A stretch of DNA of 64,000 nt, from the NCBI GenBank assembly GCA_029821755.1, contig JALGSV010000001.1, positions 1 through 64,000 on the forward strand, in the 5' to 3' direction. Shown here in pieces: positions 3,991 to 38,688 of this stretch; position 1 is the first letter of the stretch; each line of letters begins with the position of its first letter. Origin of the DNA: Candidatus Zipacnadum vermilionense (GTDB lineage: Bacteria; Armatimonadota; Zipacnadia; Zipacnadales; Zipacnadaceae). The notes beneath the pieces are model-generated. The model did not search any database. It had not been told where the DNA came from and worked only from the letters and a program-made list of their open reading frames with translations. The position numbers were made by a program, and so were the translations under genes.

Positions 3991-5481
3991 CTACCCCGCC
4001 ACGTTCAGGCACACCATCTTGGTCAGGTCCCGCGCCACCAGCTTCCCGGCGGTCAGCACCAATGGCCCCCAGGCCTCACTGCCGCTCAGGACCTTGGTCG
4101 TGGCTAGTGGCTTGAAGGCGGAGGGACTAACTTCCGCGAGGGTCAACTTCCCGGTATCGTTGAGCAAGTACATCAACCCACCCGGGGCCATGACGTACGG
4201 CCCCAGGCCGAAGCGTTGCGTCGGTCCGCTCTTCCATTGCTCCTTCCCGTCCAGGTCCATGCAGACCAGTTGCCCGTTCTCCAGGACCCCATACAGGTAG
4301 CCGCCGGACAGGATGGGTGTCTGCTGCTTGCTGCTGAAGGTCCCGGTCTTGGTGCGGTAAAGGGTCTGTACCGAGTTGCCCGACACCTTGATCATCATCG
4401 AACCGGCGTTGTAGCCGCCAGTGAGAAACACTCGCCCATCCCCGATGGAGATGGCCGTGGGGATAGTGGCGGTGCTGACCCGCCATTCCCTCGTCTGCCA
4501 CAGAATCTTGCCGGTGGCGGCATCCACGCTGGCCACGCCGCCGTGGGCCACGTAGATGTACTGGTGCTTGCCGCCGATGTCCGCCACGCAGATGGAGGCG
4601 TGGCTCTGCGACCACGGGGGGGGGCCGGTGGAGTTGGGTGTCTCCCACACCACCTTGCCACTGGCCAGGTCCACGGCGATCATCAGGGCGCGTCCGGCGG
4701 GAGCCAGGATGGCTCGATCGCCGTCAATGAGCGGGCACTGCCCGGCGTACCACTCCGGGACCTTCGCCCCGTATTGCTTGACCAGGTCCATCTGCCACCG
4801 CACTTTGCCGCTGTCGGCCTCGGCGCAGACCACCACGGCGCTGGGCCCGAAGGTGACTACGTACTTATCGGTCACTGCCGGGACGGTCCGCGACATCCCG
4901 TGGTTGCGCTTGATGGGGTTTGGATAGGCGTAGGTCCAGATATCTTGGCCGTCGGCGAAGGACATGCAGCGCAGCACGTCTTGGTTGTTGACCCAGTCTA
5001 GGATGTACATCCGTCCCTTGCGGACGGCTGGGGCGGTATAGCCCTCGCCCAATTGCCGTGACCAGACCACGGGCGGCCCGCCCTGCGGCCAGGAGCGCGC
5101 GAGACGCACCTTCTCGGTGCTGATATTGTCCCGGTTAGGCCCGCGGAACCAGGGCCAGAAGCCCGGCACGTTGCTCGCCACTGCTCCCGTGGAGACGGTC
5201 CCGCCCCCGGTCGTGGCCGCCCCTCCGGCCGTCGGGGCCGCCGCGGGACCGGCGGAAGCGGCGGGAGCGGCCAGCGTAGCCTCCGGCTGGGGGGCAGCCG
5301 CCAGCGCTGCTACCTCAGGCTCGGGGGTAGGCATGCGGGCTTGGATATCCGCCGGGGGTGCGCTGCCTCGCATCCAGAACGCAATGGCCACCCCGGCGGC
5401 CAACGCCAGCACCACCGGGAGGCCCACCGTGATGAGCAACTCCACCCGATTCGCATTCCGACTCAGTTTTAGCTTGCTCAT
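3991..5481 (-). CDS. Membrane-anchored PQQ-type beta-propeller protein
   Basis: 496 residues from the ATG at 5481, which has GGGAGAG six bases upstream; the alternative at 5499 has no such site. An N-terminal anchor (VELLITVGLPVVLALAAGVA) is followed by an Ala/Pro/Gly-rich linker to about residue 105, then a propeller with PQQ-like blades (PGFWPWFRGPNRDN, GKVRWQMD, GKVVWETP, TGKILWQT, KEQWKSG). This is the BamB/alcohol-dehydrogenase-like fold. Catalytic residues of true quinoprotein dehydrogenases are not evident, so binding or scaffolding is more likely than enzymatic work. It is the first gene of the minus-strand cluster and lies directly behind a good promoter. Confidence 0.85.
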   Translation of the reverse strand: MSKLKLSRNANRVELLITVGLPVVLALAAGVAIAFWMRGSAPPADIQARMPTPEPEVAALAAAPQPEATLAAPAASAGPAAAPTAGGAATTGGGTVSTGAVASNVPGFWPWFRGPNRDNISTEKVRLARSWPQGGPPVVWSRQLGEGYTAPAVRKGRMYILDWVNNQDVLRCMSFADGQDIWTYAYPNPIKRNHGMSRTVPAVTDKYVVTFGPSAVVVCAEADSGKVRWQMDLVKQYGAKVPEWYAGQCPLIDGDRAILAPAGRALMIAVDLASGKVVWETPNSTGPPPWSQSHASICVADIGGKHQYIYVAHGGVASVDAATGKILWQTREWRVSTATIPTAISIGDGRVFLTGGYNAGSMMIKVSGNSVQTLYRTKTGTFSSKQQTPILSGGYLYGVLENGQLVCMDLDGKEQWKSGPTQRFGLGPYVMAPGGLMYLLNDTGKLTLAEVSPSAFKPLATTKVLSGSEAWGPLVLTAGKLVARDLTKMVCLNVAG

Positions 5482-5492
5482 CGTCTCTCCCG

Positions 5493-5521
5493 TGTACAAT
5501 ACAACGCGCTCTTGATATAAT
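5493..5521 (+). promoter_or_regulatory. Sigma70-like promoter for the 5678 gene
   Basis: TGTACA at 5493-5498 and a perfect TATAAT at 5516-5521, 17 bases apart. It would give a leader of about 150 bases before the PQQ gene. It overlaps the divergent promoter of the minus-strand cluster. Confidence 0.5.
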
Positions 5522-5548
5522 AATGCACGTCGTGCCTATACCTGTCAA
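5520..5548 (-). promoter_or_regulatory. Sigma70-like promoter for the redox cluster
   Basis: On the minus strand, a perfect TTGACA (5543-5548) is followed after 17 bases by CATTAT (5520-5525). An 11-base palindrome, GCACGTCGTGC (5525-5535), lies in the spacer and could be an operator. The start codon served is at 5481. Confidence 0.55.
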
Positions 5549-5677
5549 GCGACGCTGCCCAACGCTGCAAGGACGCCGCCGCCGGTGGGGGCAGCACTCC
5601 GTGTGCTGCCCGCAAGTCGTTGCTGCTGACCACCTGGCCGCTGGCGTTCCTCTGCTGTCTGGGGAGGCAGTCCCCTC

Positions 5678-7099
5678 ATGAAAGGGTCTGATATGCGTAA
5701 CCGATCGTCCTTGTTTACCTGCCTCGCGTTCCTCCTGCTAATTTGTTCCGCCGGCGCCCTCTCGGCCGAAGTGGTCGGCTGGCGTACCGATGGCACGGGC
5801 CGCTATCCCGACGCCACGCCGCCGACCGCGTGGTCGAAGGATACCGGCGTTGTCTGGTCTGTCCCCCTGCCCGGCCCTACCGCCAGCAGCGCCAACAACA
5901 GCCTCCCCGTGATCGTAGGCGACCGCCTGTTTGTCTCCTGCGAACCGACGGATCTGGTCTGCGTGAACCTCGCCGACGGCGAAATCCTCTGGCGGAAGAG
6001 CAACACCTATGAGGAGGCGCTGTCCGCCGAGGAGGTAGCACAGATGAAGGCGGACGAGGCTGCTGCGGTGCCGATCCGGGCCGAATTGAAGGCCCTGGAA
6101 GGGGAACTGGCCAAACTCAAGGACGCCCTCAACGAGGACCCCAACGACGCCGACCTTAAGGCTCAGCAGACCGCCGCGCAAGAGAAGCAGACCGACCTGA
6201 ACAAGCAGCTCCGGCCGCTGCTGCGCTTCGCGCTGCCGATAACGCATTCCTGGAACGGTTATTCCAGTGCTACCCCGGTGACCGACGGACAAAGCGTCTG
6301 GGTGTCGTTCGGCACCGGCGTGGTGGTCTGTTACGACCTGGAGGGCAATCGCAAATGGGCGCGTTTGGTGGAGAAGCCCAGTCACGGCTGGGGTGTGAGT
6401 TCCTCGCCCGTACTGGCCGGCGACCGCCTGCTGGTGAACCTGCTCAACACCACCGCTCTCAACCCGGTCACCGGCGAGACCGTCTGGACCGCCCCCACCA
6501 GCATGTACTGGGGCACCCCGGTGGTCAGCAAGATTGCCGACGTACCCGTTGCTTTCACTCCTTTCGGGCAGATCCTCCGGCTTAGCGATGGGGAGATACT
6601 CCAGAAGGACCTTTTCCGCTTGGACTTCAACTCCCCCATCCTGCAGGGGGATACGGTCTACTACTTCCAGATCCCCGGCGCCGCCAGCCGGGCGGGTCAG
6701 GCCTTGAAGGTCCCGGCCGAAGCCGCCGACGAACTGCAGATCAAGGGCTCCTGGAAGGGCCGCGACGAGCGCTTCTACGGCAGCCCGGTGTTTGACGACG
6801 GATTGCTGTACTGCGCCAACCATCTCAACACCCTGATCTGCGCCGACGCGGTCACGGGCCAGGTGGTGTACTACCAGAAGCTCGGTCTGGGCGGGCAGGT
6901 CTTCGGCAGCGTCTGTTTCGCCGGCGGGCTGCTCTACGTCACTAGCGATAATGGCAACACGGTCATCGTCAAGCCCGGCCGCACTTACGAAGAGGTCGCT
7001 CGCAATTCTTTGGGCGAGACTGTCCGTTCCGTACCGGTCTTCGCCGGCAGCCGCATGTACGTACACGGATACAAGAACCTGTGGTGCATCGGGCAATAA
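5678..7099 (+). CDS. Exported PQQ-type beta-propeller protein with coiled-coil insert
   Basis: 473 residues, with a signal peptide (LFTCLAFLLLICSAGALSAE). An ATG at 5693 preceded by AAAGGG is an alternative start. PQQ-like blades include TGVVWSVPLPG, DGEILWRK, GNRKWARL, TGETVWTAP and TGQVVYYQK. Residues about 110-175 form a long charged helix pair rich in Glu, Lys and Ala that looks like a coiled coil inserted between blades one and two. The ligand is unknown; the family includes BamB and quinoprotein-like proteins. It is divergent from the redox cluster and probably monocistronic. Confidence 0.85.
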   Translation: MKGSDMRNRSSLFTCLAFLLLICSAGALSAEVVGWRTDGTGRYPDATPPTAWSKDTGVVWSVPLPGPTASSANNSLPVIVGDRLFVSCEPTDLVCVNLADGEILWRKSNTYEEALSAEEVAQMKADEAAAVPIRAELKALEGELAKLKDALNEDPNDADLKAQQTAAQEKQTDLNKQLRPLLRFALPITHSWNGYSSATPVTDGQSVWVSFGTGVVVCYDLEGNRKWARLVEKPSHGWGVSSSPVLAGDRLLVNLLNTTALNPVTGETVWTAPTSMYWGTPVVSKIADVPVAFTPFGQILRLSDGEILQKDLFRLDFNSPILQGDTVYYFQIPGAASRAGQALKVPAEAADELQIKGSWKGRDERFYGSPVFDDGLLYCANHLNTLICADAVTGQVVYYQKLGLGGQVFGSVCFAGGLLYVTSDNGNTVIVKPGRTYEEVARNSLGETVRSVPVFAGSRMYVHGYKNLWCIGQ

Positions 7100-23218: not shown

Positions 23219-23343
23219 CGCTGCCGGGGGGGAACGCCAGAGGCGTCCATCTCGTCTCTCTAGTTGTTGACCCTATAACGTGTTTCCCACTCCGTCAGTT
23301 CGGGTAGAATGGTATTAGATAGACCGATAAGGAAGTGATCCAC

Positions 23344-26300
23344 TTGACGTGCCGCCCCGTTTTCCTCGGGGTTTGCCTGGGCGTTTTGTTGATTGCCGGT
23401 TCTGCTGCCTTCGCCCGTGGCTCTCTGGAACCCCTCCAGCCCACTACGGTTCCCGGCCAGATTGTGGTCGGCTACAACCGTACGGCCACCGTCGCCACCA
23501 CGCAGTCCATCAGTGCCCTCGGCGCCATCCAAGTGGTGCGATCTCTAAACCAGATCGGCGCCCAGGTCTGGCGCATCCCGGCCAACGCCGATGCCCGGGC
23601 CTTGTGCGCGAAGCTCCGGGCCGTCCCCGGTGTCCGTTACGCTCGGCCTGTTGTTCGCCGCCATGTGCTCCTGGCTGCACCGAACGACCCCGCGTACAAC
23701 AACGTCGACACCTACGTCGCGCCCTTGGACCCGGACTTCGACCCGTCCGCGGCCGTTGCTTTCCAGTGGGGCCTGCACCGCATCCAGGCTCTGCAGGCCT
23801 GGAGCGTTTGGCCGGGCGCCTACTACACGGCGGCGAATAAGCCCACCAATGCGGTCAAGGTCGCGGTCATCGACACCGGGATCGACGTGGGCGGGCCCGA
23901 TGGTATCCCACACCCTGACTTCATCAACGCCGGTGGCACCAGTCCCGATGCGGCTCTGGGCGGCCAGGTCGACTTGGCCAACGCCCTGAACGTCAACGGT
24001 AACTACGAGGATCCCACCTTCATCGATGACGATTACGGCCATGGCACGGCCACCGCGGGCATCATCGCCGCCGCCACCAACAACGGCGGCACGCCCCAGT
24101 CGCCCAACGTTTCGGGCGCCATGCCTAGCCCTGACGGCATCGCCGGACTGGCTTACAACGCGCAGATCCTTCCCATCAAGGCCATGGATTCCACCGGCAA
24201 CGGCACGGACGCCGAGTTGGCGGCTGGTATTCTCGCCGCCGTCGACCGCGGCGCCCTGATTATCAACATCAGCGCCGGCGAGTACGAGTACTCCCAGGCC
24301 GAGCAAGACGCTGTCGACTACGCGTGGGACCACGGCACCCTAGTAGTCTGCGCCGCCGGTAACGATGGCCCCTCGCCCAACCGCCCCCTGTGGCCCGCGG
24401 CCTGCACCGGGGTCCTGGCCGTTTCGGCCACCGGTTACGACCCGAACGATGCCAGCTACGATCCTCTAGCCTCTTACAGCAACACCGGCTACTACGTGAA
24501 CGTCTCCGCGCCGGGTGGCGATTACTCCCTGTTTCCGCTGGGCTTCTGGGAGATCTGGTGCTCCATGCCCACCGACGGGGTGTCCGGCCAGGTCGTGGGC
24601 TGGCTGCCGTGGGAGGGCGTCGGCGCCGCGCCGCAGTACCAGTACCAGCTTGGCACCTCCCTGGCCTGCCCCTATGTGGCGGGCCTGGCCGCGCTCTATG
24701 CTGGCTATAAGGGCATCACCCAGGAGACCCCCGATGGTGTCTGGCAGATGTGGCGGGCCATCCAGAAGGGGTGTGACAACGCGACGTCCACCACGGGCTG
24801 GAGTCCCAGCTACGGTTGGGGCCGGATCAACGCCTACCAGACCATGCTGGACAACGATAACCGTGAGGCCACCTCCGGCAGCATGACCGGGCAGGTCTAC
24901 GTCCTCGGCACCGTGATGGGCAACGCCATCGTCAGCGCGGTCCCGTCCGCCGGGGGCACTGCCAAGGTTACCAACAGCAAGCTAGCCGACGGCTACTACC
25001 GCCTCAGCGGCCTCAGTCCGGGCACCTGGAACGTCACCGCTACCTATCAAGGAAAATCGGTGACCGTCAATAACGTGGTCGTCGAAGCGGGGGTCGACAC
25101 CCCGCGTGTCTACCTCAACATCAACAGTGGGGGGGGAGGCGCGGCTCTGGCAGTAAGCAGCGCGACGTACGTAGACGCTACCCACGTGGACGTGACCTTC
25201 AACCAGGCTCCTGACGGCGCCACGGTGGCGACCGCGGCCAACTACAGCATCGCCCCCGCCCTGGGGGTGACCGCCGCGGCGATCCAGGCCGATACCAAGG
25301 TGGTACGGCTGACTACCGCCCCCCAGCTGCAGTGGATGATGTACACGGTGACGGTCACGAACGTTACCAGCGGCGGTGGTGCGCCCATCGCCGCGCCGGA
25401 CAACACCGCCGGCTGGCTCGCCCCCGGCACGCCGCTGCTGACTTGGGCGGGGACCGCCGGCTTCTTCCGGGATGGCGTCAACCCCAATGTGGGCAATGTC
25501 GGGAAAACCTTTGTCTTCAAGATCAAGGTTACCCAACCTGATGGCACCGCGCCTTCCTGGGTGAAGCTGCTACTGTGGGACCCGGATGGTAACCCCGTGG
25601 CGGGTAGTCCCTTCGAGATGACCCCCCAGGCCTCGCCCAACTATCTGGTCGGGGCTGTCTTCAACAAGTCGGTGTCCCTCAACGTCCGGGGCAGATATAG
25701 CTACGCGTTCCTCGCGGCTAACGCCACCGGCACCTCCCGACGGCCCCAGCCGGGGGCGCGGAAGAGGGGGCCCACCGTCAACGCACGTCCAATGCTCGAG
25801 TGGACCCTCGAGCCGCATTACGCTATCGCGGGCGTCTACCCCTCGGCGGGTCGAGTAGGGCAGAGCTTCACCTTCCGAGTGCTGTACAGCGACGCCGACG
25901 GCAATGCGCCGCTGTATGTGAAGCTGCGGCTGTACAAGGACGGCGTGCAGATCCCCGGCAGTCCCTTCCTCATGGACAACGACACCGGCGCCACCGACTG
26001 GACCACTGGCGTAGTCTTCACGCTCACCAAGACCATCAACGAGCGCGCGATGTACCGCTATTCGTTCGCGACCAGCGACGGCATGGGCCGGGCCACTCTC
26101 CCCACTCTGGGGAGAAGCAAGGCCGGCCCGCGGGTGGACAATCCTCCGGTGCTGACCTGGGCTGCGATTCCCGGCTATACCACTGGGGGTGTCTCCCCGA
26201 CCAGTGGACCTGCCGGGACCTTCTTCAACTTCATGATCAAGTACAAGGACGCCAATGGGGATGTGCCCGTGTACGTCAAGGTCAGGATCTATGGCCCGGC

Positions 26301-26496
26301 GGGAGGGGAGATCGCCGGCAGCCCCTTCTTGATGACGGCGGTCTCCGGCACCGACTACGTCACGGGCGTCATCTTCGCCCGCATGCTGTCCTTGACCGAA
26401 CCTGGGACATACAGCTACCGCTTCATGGCCAACGACGGGCTGATCCTGCGGGAACGCCCCTACGTCCCGGCCATCGGTCCCACCGTCGTACCCTAG
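23344..26496 (+). CDS. Secreted subtilisin-like (S8) protease with C-terminal repeats
   Basis: 1050 residues from a TTG at 23344, ten bases after AAGGA; a GTG at 23335 is the other candidate. Order: signal peptide (VFLGVCLGVLLIAGSAAFA); an I9-like propeptide to about residue 100; the S8 domain with catalytic Asp177 (VAVIDTG), His233 (GHGTATAG) and Ser439 (LGTSLACPYVAGL). Next come a carboxypeptidase-regulatory-like beta-sandwich (about 515-595) and a CopC/SbsC-like Ig domain (about 600-695). Three tandem modules of about 119 residues follow, each opening with P-x-L-x-W (near 697, 815 and 935) and carrying GSPF and YSYRF-like blocks. It is probably a cell-surface or extracellular protease. No sorting signal recognised. 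Confidence 0.9.
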   Translation: MTCRPVFLGVCLGVLLIAGSAAFARGSLEPLQPTTVPGQIVVGYNRTATVATTQSISALGAIQVVRSLNQIGAQVWRIPANADARALCAKLRAVPGVRYARPVVRRHVLLAAPNDPAYNNVDTYVAPLDPDFDPSAAVAFQWGLHRIQALQAWSVWPGAYYTAANKPTNAVKVAVIDTGIDVGGPDGIPHPDFINAGGTSPDAALGGQVDLANALNVNGNYEDPTFIDDDYGHGTATAGIIAAATNNGGTPQSPNVSGAMPSPDGIAGLAYNAQILPIKAMDSTGNGTDAELAAGILAAVDRGALIINISAGEYEYSQAEQDAVDYAWDHGTLVVCAAGNDGPSPNRPLWPAACTGVLAVSATGYDPNDASYDPLASYSNTGYYVNVSAPGGDYSLFPLGFWEIWCSMPTDGVSGQVVGWLPWEGVGAAPQYQYQLGTSLACPYVAGLAALYAGYKGITQETPDGVWQMWRAIQKGCDNATSTTGWSPSYGWGRINAYQTMLDNDNREATSGSMTGQVYVLGTVMGNAIVSAVPSAGGTAKVTNSKLADGYYRLSGLSPGTWNVTATYQGKSVTVNNVVVEAGVDTPRVYLNINSGGGGAALAVSSATYVDATHVDVTFNQAPDGATVATAANYSIAPALGVTAAAIQADTKVVRLTTAPQLQWMMYTVTVTNVTSGGGAPIAAPDNTAGWLAPGTPLLTWAGTAGFFRDGVNPNVGNVGKTFVFKIKVTQPDGTAPSWVKLLLWDPDGNPVAGSPFEMTPQASPNYLVGAVFNKSVSLNVRGRYSYAFLAANATGTSRRPQPGARKRGPTVNARPMLEWTLEPHYAIAGVYPSAGRVGQSFTFRVLYSDADGNAPLYVKLRLYKDGVQIPGSPFLMDNDTGATDWTTGVVFTLTKTINERAMYRYSFATSDGMGRATLPTLGRSKAGPRVDNPPVLTWAAIPGYTTGGVSPTSGPAGTFFNFMIKYKDANGDVPVYVKVRIYGPAGGEIAGSPFLMTAVSGTDYVTGVIFARMLSLTEPGTYSYRFMANDGLILRERPYVPAIGPTVVP

Positions 26497-28520: not shown

Positions 28521-29282
28521 CTATCCCTGTTCGCCGGTGAGTCGCCGTCCTTGCTCTGCAACGAACTTGGTGGCTCGGACCCGGACCGAGCTCAGTATTG
28601 ATGCCCCCTGGTCGCTGTCGATGGTCAGGGCCAGGTCTCCATCCTCTGACGCCATTTGCGCAAACTCGTCTGCGTGCTCGCCCAGGGCACAAAGCGGATA
28701 GCGCTCGCGCAGTTCGGCGCCTCTGGGCGCCACTCGCTCTATGTGCGGGATTGCCCTCCAGCAAAACACCTTTGGACCCGTCGAGTGGGCGCCATGATAA
28801 CCGGACCTATCCGAGTACGTGTGGGATACCTTGGTTGTGACAAACCTGTAATACGCGTTCGTGTAGAGGTCACGCTCCTCGTCTGACGGAGCGGCCTTGG
28901 GGCCGGGGTATCCATAGAGTTCGGCCTCGAGCCACTCCTGCGCGGCTCGGTCATCTACTGCGATGGCCAGCTCGAGGCACTTGAGAAGACCGTCGGCGAG
29001 GGGGAGGGTGATGTTGTACAGGTGGAGCGCTGCACGGGCGTCTTCGATGAGGCGGGCGAGGGTCTCGTCTGCGGCGGCGGCGGGGCTTGGCTCCGAAGGG
29101 GGCGGATGTACTATCGTGACATTCGTGCCCTGGATGTTATCCCCGTGGACGTCCCCTGCGGTTTGGGCTTGGACTCCGCGGCCGATCGCTGCAGCGTGAC
29201 GGGATGTGCCACTCCCGCGTGAGAGCAGGCGCCCCACCGTCCCGACCGCACTCAGCAGCCATTGGAAAGCCGGATGAGACAT
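28521..29282 (-). CDS. AbiTii-domain-like protein, possible defence gene
   Basis: 253 residues from an ATG with GGAGGGG upstream. After a short hydrophobic start comes a Gly/Asp strand motif (AGDVHGDNIQGTNVTIV, residues 42-58), seen next to effector domains in other immune proteins. Residues 75-225 resemble the AbiTii domain: LIEDA, then ITLPLADGLLKCLELA, DRAAQEWLEAELYGYP and a Tyr/Arg-rich region. AbiTii is found in abortive-infection-type proteins, but its biochemical activity is not known to me. The gene begins 25 bases after hisG ends and is probably co-transcribed with it. Bases 28801-28860 contain 31 G+C by my count, well below the surroundings, which hints at transfer. Confidence 0.65.
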   Translation of the reverse strand: MSHPAFQWLLSAVGTVGRLLSRGSGTSRHAAAIGRGVQAQTAGDVHGDNIQGTNVTIVHPPPSEPSPAAAADETLARLIEDARAALHLYNITLPLADGLLKCLELAIAVDDRAAQEWLEAELYGYPGPKAAPSDEERDLYTNAYYRFVTTKVSHTYSDRSGYHGAHSTGPKVFCWRAIPHIERVAPRGAELRERYPLCALGEHADEFAQMASEDGDLALTIDSDQGASILSSVRVRATKFVAEQGRRLTGEQG

Positions 29283-30496: not shown

Positions 30497-30571
<75 letters not shown>

Positions 30572-30732: not shown

Positions 30733-33700
30733 ATGGTTGGAATAGTCGCTGATTACCTCAAAGTTCGGCGCCACCGGCGCGGTCGCCACGTGCTGTTCAT
30801 CGGCAGTGGCGCGAAGATTCCCCCGGACGAGGTCCCCCTGGGCGTGTACCTGCAGAACCTCGCTGCCGCCAAGGTGGGGGATAACTTCGCGCACCTCGCC
30901 GCGGAGGCCCGGCCTCTGGCCCAACTGGAGGCCTTCGCCCAGCGCGTGCCCGATCCCGCCGAGCGCTGCCGCAGTCTGCGGGCCTTGCTGGGCAACCCCC
31001 GCCCGGCCGAGGGCCACGTCCGCCTGGCCAGCCTGGTCAAGGATGGCTACTTCCCCGCCATCTTCACCATGGAGCCCCATGCCCTGCTGGAGCAGGCGCT
31101 GCACAACAACTTCATGGAGTCCGGCACCGACTACAACCTGGTGGTGCTGGGCGTGGACGAGCCCGAGGCGCTCAACGCCGCCCTGCAGCACTCCGTCCGG
31201 GTCACCGTGGTTAAGTGTGGCGGGGACCTGGAGAACCAATTACTCCCCCTGACCGAGACCGAGCTGACCAAACTGCTGGCTCCCTACGAGCCTTTGATCG
31301 CTGATGCTTTCTCGGTGCTGGTGACCTTCCTGGCCTACAGTGACCGCGACCGTCCGCTGCTGCGGCACGTGCCCCACACCGGCGGCAAGGTCTTCTGGGT
31401 CAGCCCGACCATCCCGCTCAGCGACCGGGCCGCCTTCGAAGAACTTCGCGCCGATGAGCCCGCGGTCGCCGAGTACCACAAGCTCCAGCCCGAGGTCACC
31501 TCCCTGCTGGAAAGTCGCCAGTCCCAGCGTCACATCCTGGCGCGCGAGGCGGGGTCCTTCAACGAGTTTCTCGCGGCCCTTAGCACTCAGCTCAAGGCGC
31601 ATGCCCGCCGGCGCATCCATGGCCGGCGCCGGGAGCTGAGCGTGCTACGCGGCGGGCCTTACCGCTTCCTGGACTACTTCGATGCCGAGGACACTGAATT
31701 CTTCTTTGGTCGCGAGGACGATACCGAGTGCCTGCTGGAGCTGGTGAACCGCCACCCCCTCAGCGTCCTCTTCGGTCACTCGGCGGTGGGGAAGACCTCC
31801 CTGCTTCGAGCCGGGCTCATTCCGCGTTTGCGGGAGTTAGATGAGGAGTGGTCCGACGAGGGCCCCCGTCCGCTGCTGCCCGTCTACGCCACCTGCGGTG
31901 ACGACCCGGAGTACCGGCTCAAGCAAGCCCTGTTGGTCCGCGCCGAGACCGAGGGCGTGCCCCTGCCTCCCGAGGTCGCTACGGGCTCTTGCCGCGAGGT
32001 GGCTATCGCCTTAGCCGAGGCCTCGGAGCGCAACCTGCTGCTTATCATGGACCACTTCGCCGAGATCTTTGTAAAGGTCGGCGCTCGGGTCCGCGAACAG
32101 TTCATGGAGACCGTACACGCGTGCCTGGACGACGATCGGCTGCACTTCCTGTTCTGCTTGCGAGAGGACTACCTGGGGGAGCTGTTCGAACTGCGCGAGG
32201 AGCTCCCCGGCGTCATGGAGAACATGTACCGGTTGCGCCGGCTGAACCGCGAGCAGACCGAGGCGGCTATCACCAAACCGGCCAGCAACTTCAACCTGCA
32301 GATCGATCGCGACCTGGTCGACCGCTTGCTGGAGGACCTCTCCCGCGAGGGCGTGCAGCCCGCGGAATTGCAGATCGTCATGTACCGCCTCTACGAGGAT
32401 ATGGAGCCGCCCTCCAAGCTGATCGGCCAGCGCCTATACGACCAGCTGGGCGGCGCGACCAAGATCCTTGCCAGCTACCTGGACAAGGCCCTCAGCCAAC
32501 TCCCCATGGCCGAACGCCCCGTGGCCCGCGACATCTTGGGCGCCATGATCGCTTCCAGTGAACTGCCCGGCCGCTGGCCGCTGGAGCGGATTCTGCGCGA
32601 GGTGGACGACCCCCGCGAGAGCGTGGAGAAGGTACTGGCGCATCTCATGGACCACCGCCTGGTGCGGGTGGTGGATGAGGAGGGTCGCCGCAGCTACGAG
32701 CTTGCCCACGAGTATCTTGCGGAAGGCCTGCGCCGCCAACTGGGTACACAGGTTCGAAGCCACCGGGATATCCAGGACCTGCTCACCCGGGAGCTGAACA
32801 ACTACGAGAAGTTTGGGTTGCTCATCGACGAGGAGCGGGTGCGCATCATCAGCGACCACGCGGACGAGCTGCGCATCTCCCCGGAGGAGTTGGAGCTGAT
32901 CCTGCGCAGCGCCGCCACCCACGGCGTCCGCGCCGACTACTGGATAGGGCAAGCCTCCAAGTTGGGCGAGCGCCGCGACTCCGTGCTCATCTCACTGCTG
33001 TCCGACTCCTCCCCGCAGGTGCGCCTGGCCGTCTATCAGGGCCTGCCGCACGACCTGTCGGCGGGCTGTATGCGCGCCTTGGCCCACGGGCTGAGCGATG
33101 AGGTGCCGGAGATTCGCGCGCTCGCTGCCAAGGCCCTCTCCGGCATGGAGCGCCAGTTGGTGGCCTTCCTGCAGTCCAGTGACGGCAAGCGCCGGCGCCT
33201 GGCCGCAACCGCTATCGGCGCGCTGCGCCTGCGCCGCCAGGGTCGGCGTCTACTGGATGCTCTCACCGATGACGACCCGGTCTCCGCGGAGGCGATAGTC
33301 CAGGCCATTCGCTCGCTGGATGACCCCCGACTGCTCGCCCAGCTCCGTCGGCGGGTGGAGGCGACAGTCGGAGTCCCCTGGGCCGCGGCGGCGGCGCTGG
33401 GGTGCTTGTCGTACACGGACCAGGACGTGGAGCAACTCCGCCGGCGGGTGGCCCAGCAGCCCGGGAACGTCCGCCTGCTGTATGCCTGGGCCGAGGCGGA
33501 GCGGGGCGCCCATGACTATGCGCAGGCTGCGCTCCTGCTGGAGCGCGCCCTGGAGGTCGCCGACGACCCGCACGGGCGCGAGTTGATTGGCGGTCTCTTG
33601 GTGGAAGTACAGGAGTTGGCCGATCGATCTGAGTCGGAGGGTGACCGCTGGTTGACCTTCGGCGGCTCACCCCGCCACGAGGCCTGCTCCGCCGTCGCCG

Positions 33701-34674
33701 TGCGTCCGCCCTTGGAGGAGGTCTGGTCCACCCGCACCGGCGGCCCCGTGGTCGCCTCCCCAGTCGTGGGCCGCAACCTGGTTTACATCGGCTCGCGGGA
33801 TGGTACTTTCTACGCGTTGGACAGTACCCGGGGCGACGTGCGCTGGTCAGTTGCCACCCAAGGGCGCATCGAGGGTACGGCCGCCCTGAGCGAGGAGGCT
33901 GTCATCTTCGGCTCCACCGACCGCGTGCTATACGCGGTGGAGCCGGCCCGCGGTCAGATCCTCTGGCGCCGCGACTTGGCCGGGCCCCTGCGCGCGGCCT
34001 GTACCCTCACCGACAAGCATGTCCTCATCGGCGATATGGCCGGCTACCTGCATGCCGTAAACCGGTCTAACGGCCGCCCTGCCTGGCGCTTCCCCACTCA
34101 GGGCGAGATCTTCTCCGCTCCCGCCCTGGCTGAGGGGTTGGTGCTCTTCGGCTCCTGGGATGCGCATCTTTACGCGGTGGAGGCCGAGAGCGGCCGGGAG
34201 GTCTGGCGCCTGGCCGTGGGCGCCCCCGTGGCCGCCTCGCCCACGATCGGGGAGGGCCTGGGGTGGTGTGGCTCTGACGACGGCTATCTGTACGCGGTCT
34301 CTCTGGAGACCGGGGAGGTCGAGTGGCGTACCTCCTTGGGCGGCCGCGTTCGTTCCACGCCCGCTCTCTGGAACGACCGGCTGGTGGTCGGCGCGGGTGA
34401 CGGCGGCATCTACTGCCTGGACGCTGCCGACGGCACCGTGCTCTGGCGCGTCCAGACCGGCGACGAGGTCCTGGCCTCCGCCGCCCTGGCGGAGAATATC
34501 GTCTACGTCGGCTCCAAGGACGGTTCGCTCTACGCTCTGAGTGTCGAGAACGGCGAGACTCTCTGGACCCATTCGACTTCCTATGGCATCTACTCCTCGC
34601 CGGCCCTCGCCAACGACAGCCTGCACATCGGATGGGCTTACTATTATGTCGCGGCATTCCGCTCGGCGGGATAA
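30733..34674 (+). CDS. SIR2-like / STAND NTPase / HEAT / PQQ-propeller protein (Avs-like)
   Basis: 1313 residues. 1-290: SIR2-like region with RHVLFIGSGA (18-27), an SLVKDGYFPAIFTMEPHALLE block (100-120), VVKCGGDLENQ (159-169) and LAYSDRD (200-206), aligned with the GAGxS, TTNxDxLLE, LHGDL and GYSxxD blocks of SIR2 effectors. The canonical Asn and His appear replaced (Glu, Gly). 309-670: STAND NTPase, with the lead-in FFFGREDD, Walker A GHSAVGKTS (348-356), Walker B LLLIMDHFAE (435-444), a FCLREDYLGEL sensor (474-484) and a winged-helix end (SYELAHEYLAEGL). About 750-900: HEAT-like repeats, then a TPR-like pair (910-965). 975-1313: eight PQQ-type blades about 41 residues apart (e.g. GTFYALDSTRGDVRW). 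The layout is that of antiviral STAND proteins, with the propeller as likely sensor. It overlaps the next gene. Confidence 0.88.
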   Translation: MVGIVADYLKVRRHRRGRHVLFIGSGAKIPPDEVPLGVYLQNLAAAKVGDNFAHLAAEARPLAQLEAFAQRVPDPAERCRSLRALLGNPRPAEGHVRLASLVKDGYFPAIFTMEPHALLEQALHNNFMESGTDYNLVVLGVDEPEALNAALQHSVRVTVVKCGGDLENQLLPLTETELTKLLAPYEPLIADAFSVLVTFLAYSDRDRPLLRHVPHTGGKVFWVSPTIPLSDRAAFEELRADEPAVAEYHKLQPEVTSLLESRQSQRHILAREAGSFNEFLAALSTQLKAHARRRIHGRRRELSVLRGGPYRFLDYFDAEDTEFFFGREDDTECLLELVNRHPLSVLFGHSAVGKTSLLRAGLIPRLRELDEEWSDEGPRPLLPVYATCGDDPEYRLKQALLVRAETEGVPLPPEVATGSCREVAIALAEASERNLLLIMDHFAEIFVKVGARVREQFMETVHACLDDDRLHFLFCLREDYLGELFELREELPGVMENMYRLRRLNREQTEAAITKPASNFNLQIDRDLVDRLLEDLSREGVQPAELQIVMYRLYEDMEPPSKLIGQRLYDQLGGATKILASYLDKALSQLPMAERPVARDILGAMIASSELPGRWPLERILREVDDPRESVEKVLAHLMDHRLVRVVDEEGRRSYELAHEYLAEGLRRQLGTQVRSHRDIQDLLTRELNNYEKFGLLIDEERVRIISDHADELRISPEELELILRSAATHGVRADYWIGQASKLGERRDSVLISLLSDSSPQVRLAVYQGLPHDLSAGCMRALAHGLSDEVPEIRALAAKALSGMERQLVAFLQSSDGKRRRLAATAIGALRLRRQGRRLLDALTDDDPVSAEAIVQAIRSLDDPRLLAQLRRRVEATVGVPWAAAAALGCLSYTDQDVEQLRRRVAQQPGNVRLLYAWAEAERGAHDYAQAALLLERALEVADDPHGRELIGGLLVEVQELADRSESEGDRWLTFGGSPRHEACSAVAVRPPLEEVWSTRTGGPVVASPVVGRNLVYIGSRDGTFYALDSTRGDVRWSVATQGRIEGTAALSEEAVIFGSTDRVLYAVEPARGQILWRRDLAGPLRAACTLTDKHVLIGDMAGYLHAVNRSNGRPAWRFPTQGEIFSAPALAEGLVLFGSWDAHLYAVEAESGREVWRLAVGAPVAASPTIGEGLGWCGSDDGYLYAVSLETGEVEWRTSLGGRVRSTPALWNDRLVVGAGDGGIYCLDAADGTVLWRVQTGDEVLASAALAENIVYVGSKDGSLYALSVENGETLWTHSTSYGIYSSPALANDSLHIGWAYYYVAAFRSAG

Positions 34675-35539
34675 CCAGTCAGGGCGTTTCCTCTCCCCGG
34701 AGGCACCGGCGGTTCGCCGAGGGCCCGCGGGCGGGGCGCGGCTCGCCGGCCTGCTAGTCCTCGCCCTCCTGATCGCCGGCTGCTCGCCTCTGCAGACGGC
34801 GGATGCCATGCGGCGCGATTTCATGGCCCAGTCACTGGTCAAGCAAGCCGCCGCGCGCGCCGCTGCCGGACGGGCCGACGGGCGTGCCGTCCAACTCGCT
34901 GCCTGGGCCACCCGCCTGGCTCCCGACGATCTCCCGGTCCTACGCCTGGCCAGTGCTGTCTTCCTCCAGGGGCAGGCCTGGGACCGCGCGCTGGAGGGGC
35001 TACTGACGCTGCAGCAGAAGACGGGCGTGGCCGACGCTTACCACTTGGGTACCTGCTACCTATTCCTGGGCCAGGAAGCGAAGGGGGTGGTCTTGTTGGA
35101 GGCCTCCCTGGGAGCTGCGCGCTCGCGCTACGCCACGCACCAGATCAGCAGCTTGGCCCTGGCGACTACCTTTAACAACGTCGGCTACACTTACGCCGAC
35201 GCTGGCGTGCGTCTGTCGGAAGCCGTTGAGCTCACCCAGGAGGCGGTGCGTCTCGCCCCGGCAACTCCCAGTTTCCTCGACAGTCTGGGCTGGGCTTACC
35301 ACCGCGTCGGCCAGAACAGGGCGGCGGCCTTTGCCCTGGAGCAGGCCCTGCGCCTGCAGCGCCGCCCCGACGCCATTATCTTCTACCATGCCGGCGTGGT
35401 GCACGCCCGGATGGGCCAGTTGCGCCTGGCCCGCGTCGAGCTGCGGCGGGCCCTTTCCCTGCGCGGGGGTGACTTCCCGGAGGCGGCCGACGCCTTTCAT
35501 CGGATGCACTGGCAACTCCCACCGCCCGAGACGGTGTAA
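34646..35539 (+). CDS. TPR-repeat lipoprotein
   Basis: 297 residues from the ATG at 34646, which lies inside the last 29 bases of the STAND gene in another frame. After a basic region the helix GLLVLALLIAGC ends in a lipobox, so the protein should be a lipoprotein. TPR-like helical pairs run to the end: QLAAWATRLAPDDLPVLRLA, DAYHLGTCYLFLGQEAKGV, ATTFNNVGYTYADAGVRLSE, FLDSLGWAYHRVGQNRAAAF and IFYHAGVVHARMGQLRLARV. The overlap points to co-transcription with the STAND protein; whether it works with it is open. The start is less sure because no strong ribosome site is seen. Confidence 0.78.
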   Translation: MSRHSARRDNQSGRFLSPEAPAVRRGPAGGARLAGLLVLALLIAGCSPLQTADAMRRDFMAQSLVKQAAARAAAGRADGRAVQLAAWATRLAPDDLPVLRLASAVFLQGQAWDRALEGLLTLQQKTGVADAYHLGTCYLFLGQEAKGVVLLEASLGAARSRYATHQISSLALATTFNNVGYTYADAGVRLSEAVELTQEAVRLAPATPSFLDSLGWAYHRVGQNRAAAFALEQALRLQRRPDAIIFYHAGVVHARMGQLRLARVELRRALSLRGGDFPEAADAFHRMHWQLPPPETV

Positions 35540-35578
35540 GCTGAGACGCCCATGTTTGCCACTAACCCGGAGGATACC

Positions 35579-36763
35579 ATGAAGATCTCACAACGTGCCC
35601 TCGCTATCGCCCCCTCGCCTACCATTGCCATGTCCTCGCGCGCCAAGGCCATGCGGGCCCAGGGGCAAGACGTCATCTCCTTCGACGTAGGCGAGCCGGA
35701 TTTCCCCACCCCGGAGAACATCTGCCGCGCCGCTTGCGACGCCATCGCCGCCGGCCACACCAAGTACACCCCCGCCGCGGGGCTCCCCAAGCTCAAAGAG
35801 GCCATCGTCCAGGCCACCGCCCGCGACGTGGGGCTGCAGTACGACCCGGCCCAGGTTGTCGTCTCCAACGGCGGCAAGCACGCCCTGATGAACATCTGGG
35901 AGTCCATCGTCGACCCGGGCGATGAGGTCATCGTCTTCGCGCCCTATTGGGTCAGCTACCCGGCCCAGATCGAGTTGTGTGGCGGTCGCGCGGTCGTCAT
36001 CCCTACCCGCGGGGAGGACGACTTCCAGCCGGACCTCGACCAGGTCCGTACGGCGCTTTCCGACCGCACTATCGCTCTGCTGATCAACAGCCCCTCCAAC
36101 CCCGCCGGCGCCATCTTCACCGAGGCGACCATGCGTGGTCTGGCGGAAATCGCGGTTGAGGGCGACCTGCTGATCATCTCCGACGAGATCTACAAGCACA
36201 TCCTCTTTGATGGCCGGAAGCACCTGAGCACCGCCCAGTTAGGTGAGGAGGTCAAGTCCCGCACCATCCTCGCCGACGGCGTGGCCAAGACCTACGCCAT
36301 GACCGGCTGGCGCATCGGCTGGCTGATCGCACCGAAGGAGATCGCCAAGCGGGCGGGGGACATCCAGAGTCAGGAGACCTCCAATCCCAACACCCCGGCG
36401 CAGTACGCCGCCATCGAGGCGCTACTGGGGCCGCAAGATTCGGTGGCGACGATGCGGGCGGAGTTCGAGCGTCGTCGCGACTACCTGGTGCCGGCGCTCT
36501 GCGAGATGGCGGGGATTAAGTGCAACAAGCCGGGCGGCGCTTTCTACGTCTTCCCGGACATTTCGGCCCACGTCGGTCGCACCCTGAACGGCACGCCGAT
36601 CCCGACCGACCTGGCCCTGGCCGAGTACCTGCTGGAGAAGGCCCTAATCAGCGCCGTTCCCGGGTCCGCCTTCGGGAGCGACGGGTACATTCGCTTCAGC
36701 TTCGCGACGTCGATGGAGCTCTTGCAGGAGGGAATGCGGAGGCTGAGGGAGGCCTTGAGCTAG
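35579..36763 (+). CDS. Class I aspartate/aromatic aminotransferase (PLP)
   Basis: 394 residues from the ATG at 35579 (GGAGG five bases upstream). Fold-type I motifs: ISFDVGEPDFPTPE, HTKYTPAAG, NSPSNPAGAIF, ISDEIYKH, and the PLP lysine in GVAKTYAMTGWRIGW, followed by QETSNPNTPAQYAA. This is the AspB group (aspartate, or aspartate/prephenate). It transfers amino groups between aspartate and 2-oxoglutarate. It starts 39 bases after the TPR lipoprotein gene but looks like ordinary housekeeping. Confidence 0.9.
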   Translation: MKISQRALAIAPSPTIAMSSRAKAMRAQGQDVISFDVGEPDFPTPENICRAACDAIAAGHTKYTPAAGLPKLKEAIVQATARDVGLQYDPAQVVVSNGGKHALMNIWESIVDPGDEVIVFAPYWVSYPAQIELCGGRAVVIPTRGEDDFQPDLDQVRTALSDRTIALLINSPSNPAGAIFTEATMRGLAEIAVEGDLLIISDEIYKHILFDGRKHLSTAQLGEEVKSRTILADGVAKTYAMTGWRIGWLIAPKEIAKRAGDIQSQETSNPNTPAQYAAIEALLGPQDSVATMRAEFERRRDYLVPALCEMAGIKCNKPGGAFYVFPDISAHVGRTLNGTPIPTDLALAEYLLEKALISAVPGSAFGSDGYIRFSFATSMELLQEGMRRLREALS

Positions 36764-37608: not shown

Positions 37609-38688
37609 ATGCACAAAGTAACCTTCATCCCCGGCGATGGCACGGGCCCCGAAGTGGCCTGGGCCATGCGCCGCTGTGTGGACGCCACCGGCGTCGCCAT
37701 TGAGTGGGAAGAGCAGCACGCCGGCGTAGACGCCATGGAGGAGAAGGGCACACCCCTTCCCCCCGAGGTGCTCGAGTCCATCCGCCGCAACAAGGTCGCC
37801 ATCAAGGGGCCCATCACCACCCCCATCGGCAGCGGTTTCCGCAGCGTCAACGTCGCTCTGCGCAAGGAGCTTGACCTCTACGTCTGCCTGCGCCCGTGCA
37901 AGTATTACCCCGGTGTTCGCGGCCACTACGACAACGTGGATCTGGTGATCGTCCGCGAGAACACCGAAGACCTCTACTCCGGCATCGAGTTCGACCACGG
38001 CACGCCCGAGTGCGACGAGGTGCTCGAGGCCATTCAGCGCCTGTCGGGGAAGCAAGTCTGGCCCGGTTCCTCGCTGAGCATCAAGCCTATCTCGGAGTTT
38101 GCCACCGAGCGTATCGTCCGCTACGCCTTCGACTACGCGGTCAAGCACGGCCGCCAGAAAGTCACGGCGGTGCACAAGGCCAACATCATGAAGTACACCG
38201 ACGGCCTGTTCCTGTCCGTGGCGCGGCGGGTAGGGGAGGAGTACGCGGGCAGCGGCGTGGAGTTCGAGGACCGCATCGTGGACAACATGTGCATGCAGCT
38301 CGTGCAGAAGCCCGAGCTGTACGAGGTGCTGGTCCTGCCCAACCTCTACGGGGATATCCTCAGCGATCTGGCCTGCGGGCTGGTGGGAGGTCTGGGGGTG
38401 GCGCCGGGGGCCAACCTAGGGGAGGGCCTCGCCGTCTTCGAGCCTACCCATGGTTCCGCGCCCAAGTACAAGGGGCAGAACAAGGTCAACCCGGTGGCGA
38501 CAATCCTGTCCGGAGTGCTGATGCTCGACTACCTGGGGGAGAAGGACGCGGCGAAGCGGCTGGAGAGTGCGGTAGCGGCGGTTATCCGCGAGGGGAAAGA
38601 CGTCACCTATGACATGAAGTCCTACCGCGACGACCCCACCGCCGTGGGTACCAGCGAAATGGCTGACGCGATCATCCGGCGATTGTAG
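37609..38688 (+). CDS. NAD-dependent isocitrate dehydrogenase family protein
   Basis: 359 residues from the ATG with AAGGAG upstream. Motifs: [13 protein letters not shown], a substrate region [36 protein letters not shown], the [16 protein letters not shown] lysine region, [20 protein letters not shown] and [14 protein letters not shown]. This is the beta-decarboxylating dehydrogenase family. The Ser in the first substrate block and the YSGIEF element favour NAD-isocitrate dehydrogenase over isopropylmalate dehydrogenase. With malate dehydrogenase at 39628 it suggests TCA-cycle function. Confidence 0.88.

Follow-up and report, generated by a model that had tools for sequence, protein, structure and literature searches.

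What does a protein built like an immune receptor do when the active site of its effector domain is gone? Proteins that join a SIR2 domain to a STAND ATPase are known as antiphage systems acting via the loss of nicotinamide adenine dinucleotide (NAD). One gene of Candidatus Zipacnadum vermilionense (Armatimonadota, class Zipacnadia), located at 30733..34674 on the forward strand of the 64,000-nucleotide stretch analysed here (contig JALGSV010000001.1, positions 1 to 64,000; hereafter the window), encodes such a protein of 1313 residues with SIR2-fold, nSTAND1, HEAT and PQQ-propeller parts. A sequence-only reading had seen in it an Avs-like antiviral protein with a catalytically altered SIR2 domain and a propeller possibly captured from host genes nearby. 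Our analysis points to another answer: the protein has the anatomy of a STAND receptor and the evolutionary behaviour of a core gene. By the sequence comparisons below, this receptor-like protein appears to be a fixed, vertically inherited part of the class, which suggests that in Zipacnadia it serves as an everyday regulator.

The open reading frame (ORF), its coordinates and the motifs quoted in the sequence-only reading were all correct, and the proposed order of SIR2, STAND, HEAT and propeller domains was recovered by Pfam and structure modelling; the proposed TPR repeats appeared weakly (TPR_20, E 0.011, below cut-off), and the eight blades are a number that we infer from a 40-residue period. 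Residues 309-690 (31657..32802) form the switch, which belongs to the nSTAND1 NTPases by its Pfam match (PF20703, 3.9e-55, residues 309-687; 188.5 bits against a curated cut-off of 27.1) together with its two Walker motifs. In Walker A (GHSAVGKTS, residues 348-356, 31774..31800) G348, G353, K354 and S356 are invariant in 36 sequences, and in Walker B (LLLIMDHFAE, residues 435-444, 32035..32064) D440 is present in 36/36 and E444 in 34/36, five partial rows being omitted from these counts. A HEAT and TPR-like alpha solenoid follows (residues 691-985, 32803..33687; HEAT_2, 2.3e-9), and then a PQQ-type propeller (residues 986-1313, 33688..34671; PQQ_2 and Beta-prop_ACSF4). An AlphaFold2 model of residues 690-1313 shows the alpha solenoid and propeller with a predicted local distance difference test score (pLDDT) of 93.8.

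The N-terminal domain (residues 1-300, 30733..31632) was harder to place. Taken alone, the window copy had no Pfam match at E <= 1. Sequence searches of the PDB gave nothing at E <= 10 with the single protein and only ThsA, at E 0.6, with a profile. The fold is assigned from the structure model, and this bore out the SIR2 fold that had been proposed. The AlphaFold2 model, built from 38 sequences, reached a pLDDT of 94.2, and its best match in a VIA fold comparison was the SPARSA chain 8y80_E (Z 21.0, root-mean-square deviation 3.1, 258 aligned residues), with lower scores for ThsA (17.7), a KomBC complex (16.8), DSR2 (15.3), EfAvs5 (14.5) and a classical sirtuin (14.3). Sequence models agree in the relatives: SIR2_2 matches the domain in 7/38, and a PADLOC Argonaute-associated SIR2 model in 37/38. 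The latter is one of the Aga_SIR2 models, which by our reading describe Argonaute-associated SIR2 proteins.

The active site of this domain has been altered throughout the class. The alignment covers 41 class copies, two of which (L041, L073) are blank at the motif positions. Of the five copies outside it, G252, G262, G278 and G279 were read by motif (G279 at the His position, without the Asn position), and G253 is truncated ahead of the SIR2 domain. At the place of the sirtuin GAGxS motif the window protein reads GSGAK (residues 24-28, 30802..30816); G24 is kept in 38/38 and S25 in 33/38 rows with a letter there, while the residues seen at position 28 are R, V, K, P, I, N and A, never S. The TTNxD motif is replaced by TMEPH (residues 112-116, 31066..31080), with E114 in the place of the catalytic Asn, and across 39 rows this position holds E (19), D (10), S (3), G (3), C (2), A (1) or T (1), with E, S and E in three further copies read by motif. 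KxHG has become KCGG (residues 161-164, 31213..31224), with G163 in place of the catalytic His; here the 39 rows hold G (19), A (12), L (4), C (3) or P (1), and four further copies G, G, G and C. The catalytic Asn is thus found in 0/42 and the catalytic His in 0/43 class sequences, which lack the marks of a catalytic SIR2 NADase, while G24 (38/38) and K161 and G164 (39 rows) of the nucleotide motifs are invariant. The catalytic pair is kept, as TTNFD or TFNFD plus LHG, in four SIR2 proteins encoded by other genes, L095 in a class genome and L096-L098 outside the class; a fifth match fetched for this comparison (L099) was dropped as not SIR2 by reading. The altered residues noticed in the window copy therefore hold in every class copy read, and since the loss is common to all of them it is inherited, which rules out a decay of the active site confined to this one genome. 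We conclude from these alignments that the N-terminal domain is very probably a pseudoenzyme in all class families read.

The gene itself, searched with a profile of residues 1-690, is present once in each of the 46 Zipacnadia genomes examined, including 22/22 of high quality and all 24 genera; the copy of G262 is in two pieces of one gene and that of G253 is truncated. With the N-terminal domain alone as query, matches were found in 45 of the 291 Armatimonadota genomes, all within the class. A more sensitive profile added four weak matches outside it, three being SIR2 proteins whose catalytic residues are the usual ones and one unrelated by reading. No relatives of the domain were found in plasmids or phages, and none in IMG/VR by one peptide pattern; a scan of species genomes with one such pattern gave 16 relatives, a pattern that missed most class members and may also miss relatives in other phyla. 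SIR2_2 genes other than the STAND gene occur in 16/46 class genomes (17 were counted, that of G250 being the STAND gene itself). The genome studied here has a separate SIR2_2 protein, in a 627-codon frame (G000:C49:3475-3900, reverse strand).

Inheritance of the gene appears to be vertical. In an IQ-TREE phylogeny of the NTPase and HEAT parts (48 rows), the 13 family groups require 12 changes of family label, which is the minimum; f1 and two distant f18 rows did not come out as single clades. Pairwise distances of the STAND gene correlate with those of an aminotransferase encoded nearby (Spearman 0.76, 30 taxa), and those of the aminotransferase with those of isocitrate dehydrogenase (0.55, 25 taxa), each comparison being limited to loci having both genes. 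The ratio of nonsynonymous to synonymous substitution rates (dN/dS) in six pairs was 0.06-0.19 for the pseudo-SIR2 domain and 0.04-0.32 elsewhere, with 0.53 in an 11-codon fragment, indicating at the level of coding sequence that all domains are under purifying selection.

The setting of the gene is conserved as well. Directly upstream in the window is a tRNA-Met(CAT) (30497..30571, forward strand; ARAGORN), found in the same place in 17/20 related loci scanned, of 40. Directly downstream, in a short overlap with the 3' end of the STAND frame, is a gene for a TPR protein with a lipobox-like signal (34646..35539, forward strand, with a start codon of our choosing; TPR_2, 1e-9), and 32/36 downstream ORFs, that of the window included, belong to this one TPR family (L040 and L063 are omitted from the count). 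Next come a class I/II, aspartate aminotransferase-like gene (35552..36763, forward strand; Pfam 7.1e-67), downstream in 31/40 related loci, and an isocitrate/isopropylmalate dehydrogenase family gene (37609..38688, forward strand; Pfam 6e-102), with isocitrate dehydrogenase downstream in 24/40 loci and a malate dehydrogenase-like gene in 14/40; short contigs account for part of the missing downstream genes. Further upstream, rpoD and dnaG are each found in 19/41 loci. The labels rpoD, dnaG, malate dehydrogenase, hisG, UroD and M50 were given by reading, the last to a protein with no Pfam match. A search beyond the class for an empty site gave an rpoD-like match in 25/30 genomes; the ten non-class loci inspected around this match had no recognisable STAND, TPR, aminotransferase or isocitrate dehydrogenase gene, and so did not demonstrate an empty site. 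At locus L063 (G251) a 1599-codon frame joins the STAND and TPR genes, by an indel or a fusion; we rejected it as evidence, as the last blade lies in a shifted frame and an assembly indel is the simpler explanation. Elsewhere in the window, at 23335-26496 on the forward strand, lies a gene for a large protein that by reading is secreted and subtilase-like.

These observations do not support the Avs-like antiviral role that had been proposed for this protein. Antiphage genes are expected to show patchy presence, mobile relatives or a defence neighbourhood; here the gene is in 46/46 class genomes at a conserved locus, and among ten neighbouring window proteins PADLOC gave no match for nine and an AbiTii-like match for one, with no Argonaute. 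A conserved setting without defence neighbours, which the sequence-only reading had itself named as evidence against antiviral function, is what we see as far as sequence can show.

What the sequence-only reading had said of a modular effector, switch and sensor was strengthened by the few relatives outside the class. The NTPase matches 8/245 phylum genomes there (E <= 1e-10), five of which (G213-G217, families f39 and f40) have NTPase, HEAT and propeller parts collinear with those of the window protein at 29-35% identity, over the full length in three and partially in two. Their N-terminus, visible in 4/5 (the G214 frame begins inside the NTPase), is one family of 31-74% identity. Pfam matches it to HD-CE in L146 only, at 24.5 bits against a cut-off of 27, and H and HD residues were seen by reading in the other three and not in L146. 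This HD-CE-like domain is unrelated to the SIR2-like domain (profile-profile probability 0.2%). Because f39/f40 share the core and differ in the N-terminus, the effector position is, on this comparison of sequences, exchanged on a common STAND-HEAT-propeller core. None of the locus genes of the window was found beside the f39/f40 copies. In two f40 loci a long protein is encoded directly upstream of the HD-CE-like STAND gene (L147:5227-7821 and L149:3827-6514); the former has a cold-shock domain by Pfam and the latter is similar by reading.

The same relatives bear on the origin of the propeller, which had been likened to the proteins encoded at 3991-7099 and regarded as captured from them. 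The best local matches to these proteins have 29-34% identity (E 1e-5 to 3e-5), and neither protein appears at E <= 0.001 in a whole-genome search, which did find other PQQ-propeller proteins in the genome. We reject the capture on account of this weak match and because the propeller is common to f39/f40 outside the class; a much older acquisition is possible. The propeller also seems to evolve slowly: compared as a whole, it shares 39-68% identity with the propellers of six relatives, as against a mean of 33% among five blades within the protein. Immune-type STAND propellers are described in PMC9218822 as turning over fast by recent blade amplification. The propeller-bearing STAND ATPases treated there (WRAP type, WD40) resemble the window protein in their STAND switch and C-terminal propeller; their blades are reported to be recently amplified, whereas those of the window protein are old and collinear.

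Two further known systems come close at the N-terminal end. Avs5 (AVAST type 5, a SIR2-STAND system) likewise has an N-terminal SIR2 fold, matched by EfAvs5 as given above, and a central STAND ATPase, whereas the window protein has lost TTNxD, carries an nSTAND1-type NTPase with HEAT and a PQQ propeller, and is a core gene of its class. Six PADLOC families matched the window protein at E <= 1, none of them named Avs, in a library that may not cover Avs5; searching the PDB with a profile of residues 1-690 brought up no Avs chain at E <= 1, which does not show a differing fold. The SIR2 subunit of SPARSA, from short Argonaute systems, offers the nearest fold and the nearest sequence models, and the window protein differs from it by its fused STAND NTPase and its lost catalytic residues. 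The Argonaute partner of SPARSA is absent among the ten neighbours (PADLOC), and the protein has no Argonaute domain by Pfam. We found no description of a pseudo-SIR2 STAND or PQQ-STAND protein among the listed titles and abstract openings of open PubMed Central papers, and in a paper on the class Zipacnadia (PMC10290634) the strings phage, defen and CRISPR are absent from the main text.

We therefore favour, with a probability of roughly 55%, a cellular regulatory STAND switch with a non-catalytic SIR2-fold module. In such a switch an endogenous cue or partner would be bound by the HEAT solenoid together with the propeller, which evolves slowly, and binding would free the nSTAND1 ATPase and lead to assembly of oligomers. 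The pseudo-SIR2 domains would consume no NAD and may act as a non-catalytic module for self-assembly or for binding a partner, NAD(H) or ADP-ribose. The resulting output would be a cellular function, possibly tied to the co-located TPR membrane protein and to central metabolism. A more daring form of the idea, which we regard as quite unlikely, would be an NLR-like STAND core regulator in which a SIR2 NADase was turned into an assembly domain responsive to NAD(H) or ADP-ribose, coupling redox state to the envelope or metabolism, with the HD-CE-like domain in its place outside the class.

Several points weigh against a cellular regulatory switch. The backbone of the NTPase and HEAT tree is weak, with 25/45 inner branches well supported, and at low support families f9 and f10 fall beside f39/f40, so that the class copies are not shown as one clade. 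In f9 and f10 (three class genomes) the gene is at another place, and the two copies tested with Pfam have mreC as their next downstream gene; the metabolic neighbours are therefore not universal. In four of the 46 class copies the assembled reading frame is broken, by in-frame stops (G286, G289) or split or shifted frames (G262, G251). Direct contact of the TPR protein with a cytosolic STAND protein is uncertain, since a lipobox-like pattern is found in 19/32 of the TPR family and a hydrophobic segment in the rest. On the side of defence, the PADLOC candidate defence model PDC-S65 matches the N-terminal domain in 33/38 relatives, and the AbiTii-like ORF is located upstream of the gene in the window (28521-29282, reverse strand, outside the conserved gene set; Pfam 25.0 bits against a cut-off of 27.6, PADLOC 7.5e-8). 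Finally, core immune genes are conceivable, which makes universality compatible with defence.

The last point leads to a class-wide, constitutive antiphage STAND protein, whose pseudo-SIR2 domain would block phage without NAD hydrolysis, as a decoy, as a dominant-negative partner or as a scaffold recruiting another effector. Defence SIR2 domains fill VIA ranks 1-36, classical sirtuins following from rank 39. Conflict systems typically vary the N-terminal domain on a shared core, as is seen here outside the class, and inactive enzyme domains are described as effectors of other bacterial conflict systems (PMC7159879). Set against a distribution that is not patchy, the lack of mobile relatives in the searches made, a sensor that is not fast-evolving and a conserved locus, we judge such a role improbable, though worth keeping in mind. 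There is a slim chance that the domain is still an enzyme, of changed chemistry, with an acidic residue in the place of the Asn: position 114 is E or D in 29/39 rows, and PMC12931631 reports the His to be dispensable, many Avs5 proteins having Asn there. The same paper reports that Asn is needed, the N110A change having abolished immunity in Avs5; moreover, the remaining 10/39 rows have S, G, C, A or T at position 114, and the His position holds G, A, L, C or P in the 39 rows.

The invariant G24, K161 and G164, and the isocitrate and malate dehydrogenase-like genes at the locus, would suit a domain that senses NAD(H) or ADP-ribose without catalysis, in a protein regulating the neighbouring dehydrogenases. 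We hold this to be about as doubtful as an altered enzyme, given that f9 and f10 lack dehydrogenase neighbours and that f39/f40 manage without a SIR2-like domain. That the gene is a slowly decaying relic of defence might be argued from the lost catalytic residues and the interrupted copies; it is scarcely credible and, on these sequences, appears largely refuted by purifying selection, as every domain comparison exceeding 11 codons gave a dN/dS of 0.04-0.32 and most genomes have long open frames.

A class-wide SIR2-STAND gene that selection has kept without its catalytic residues is a natural experiment, in which the switch and the SIR2 fold are set apart from NAD hydrolysis. The question of which role a STAND receptor plays outside defence thereby becomes directly testable. 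The different N-terminus that this core carries outside the class shows that the effector position can change on an apparently stable, non-mobile scaffold.

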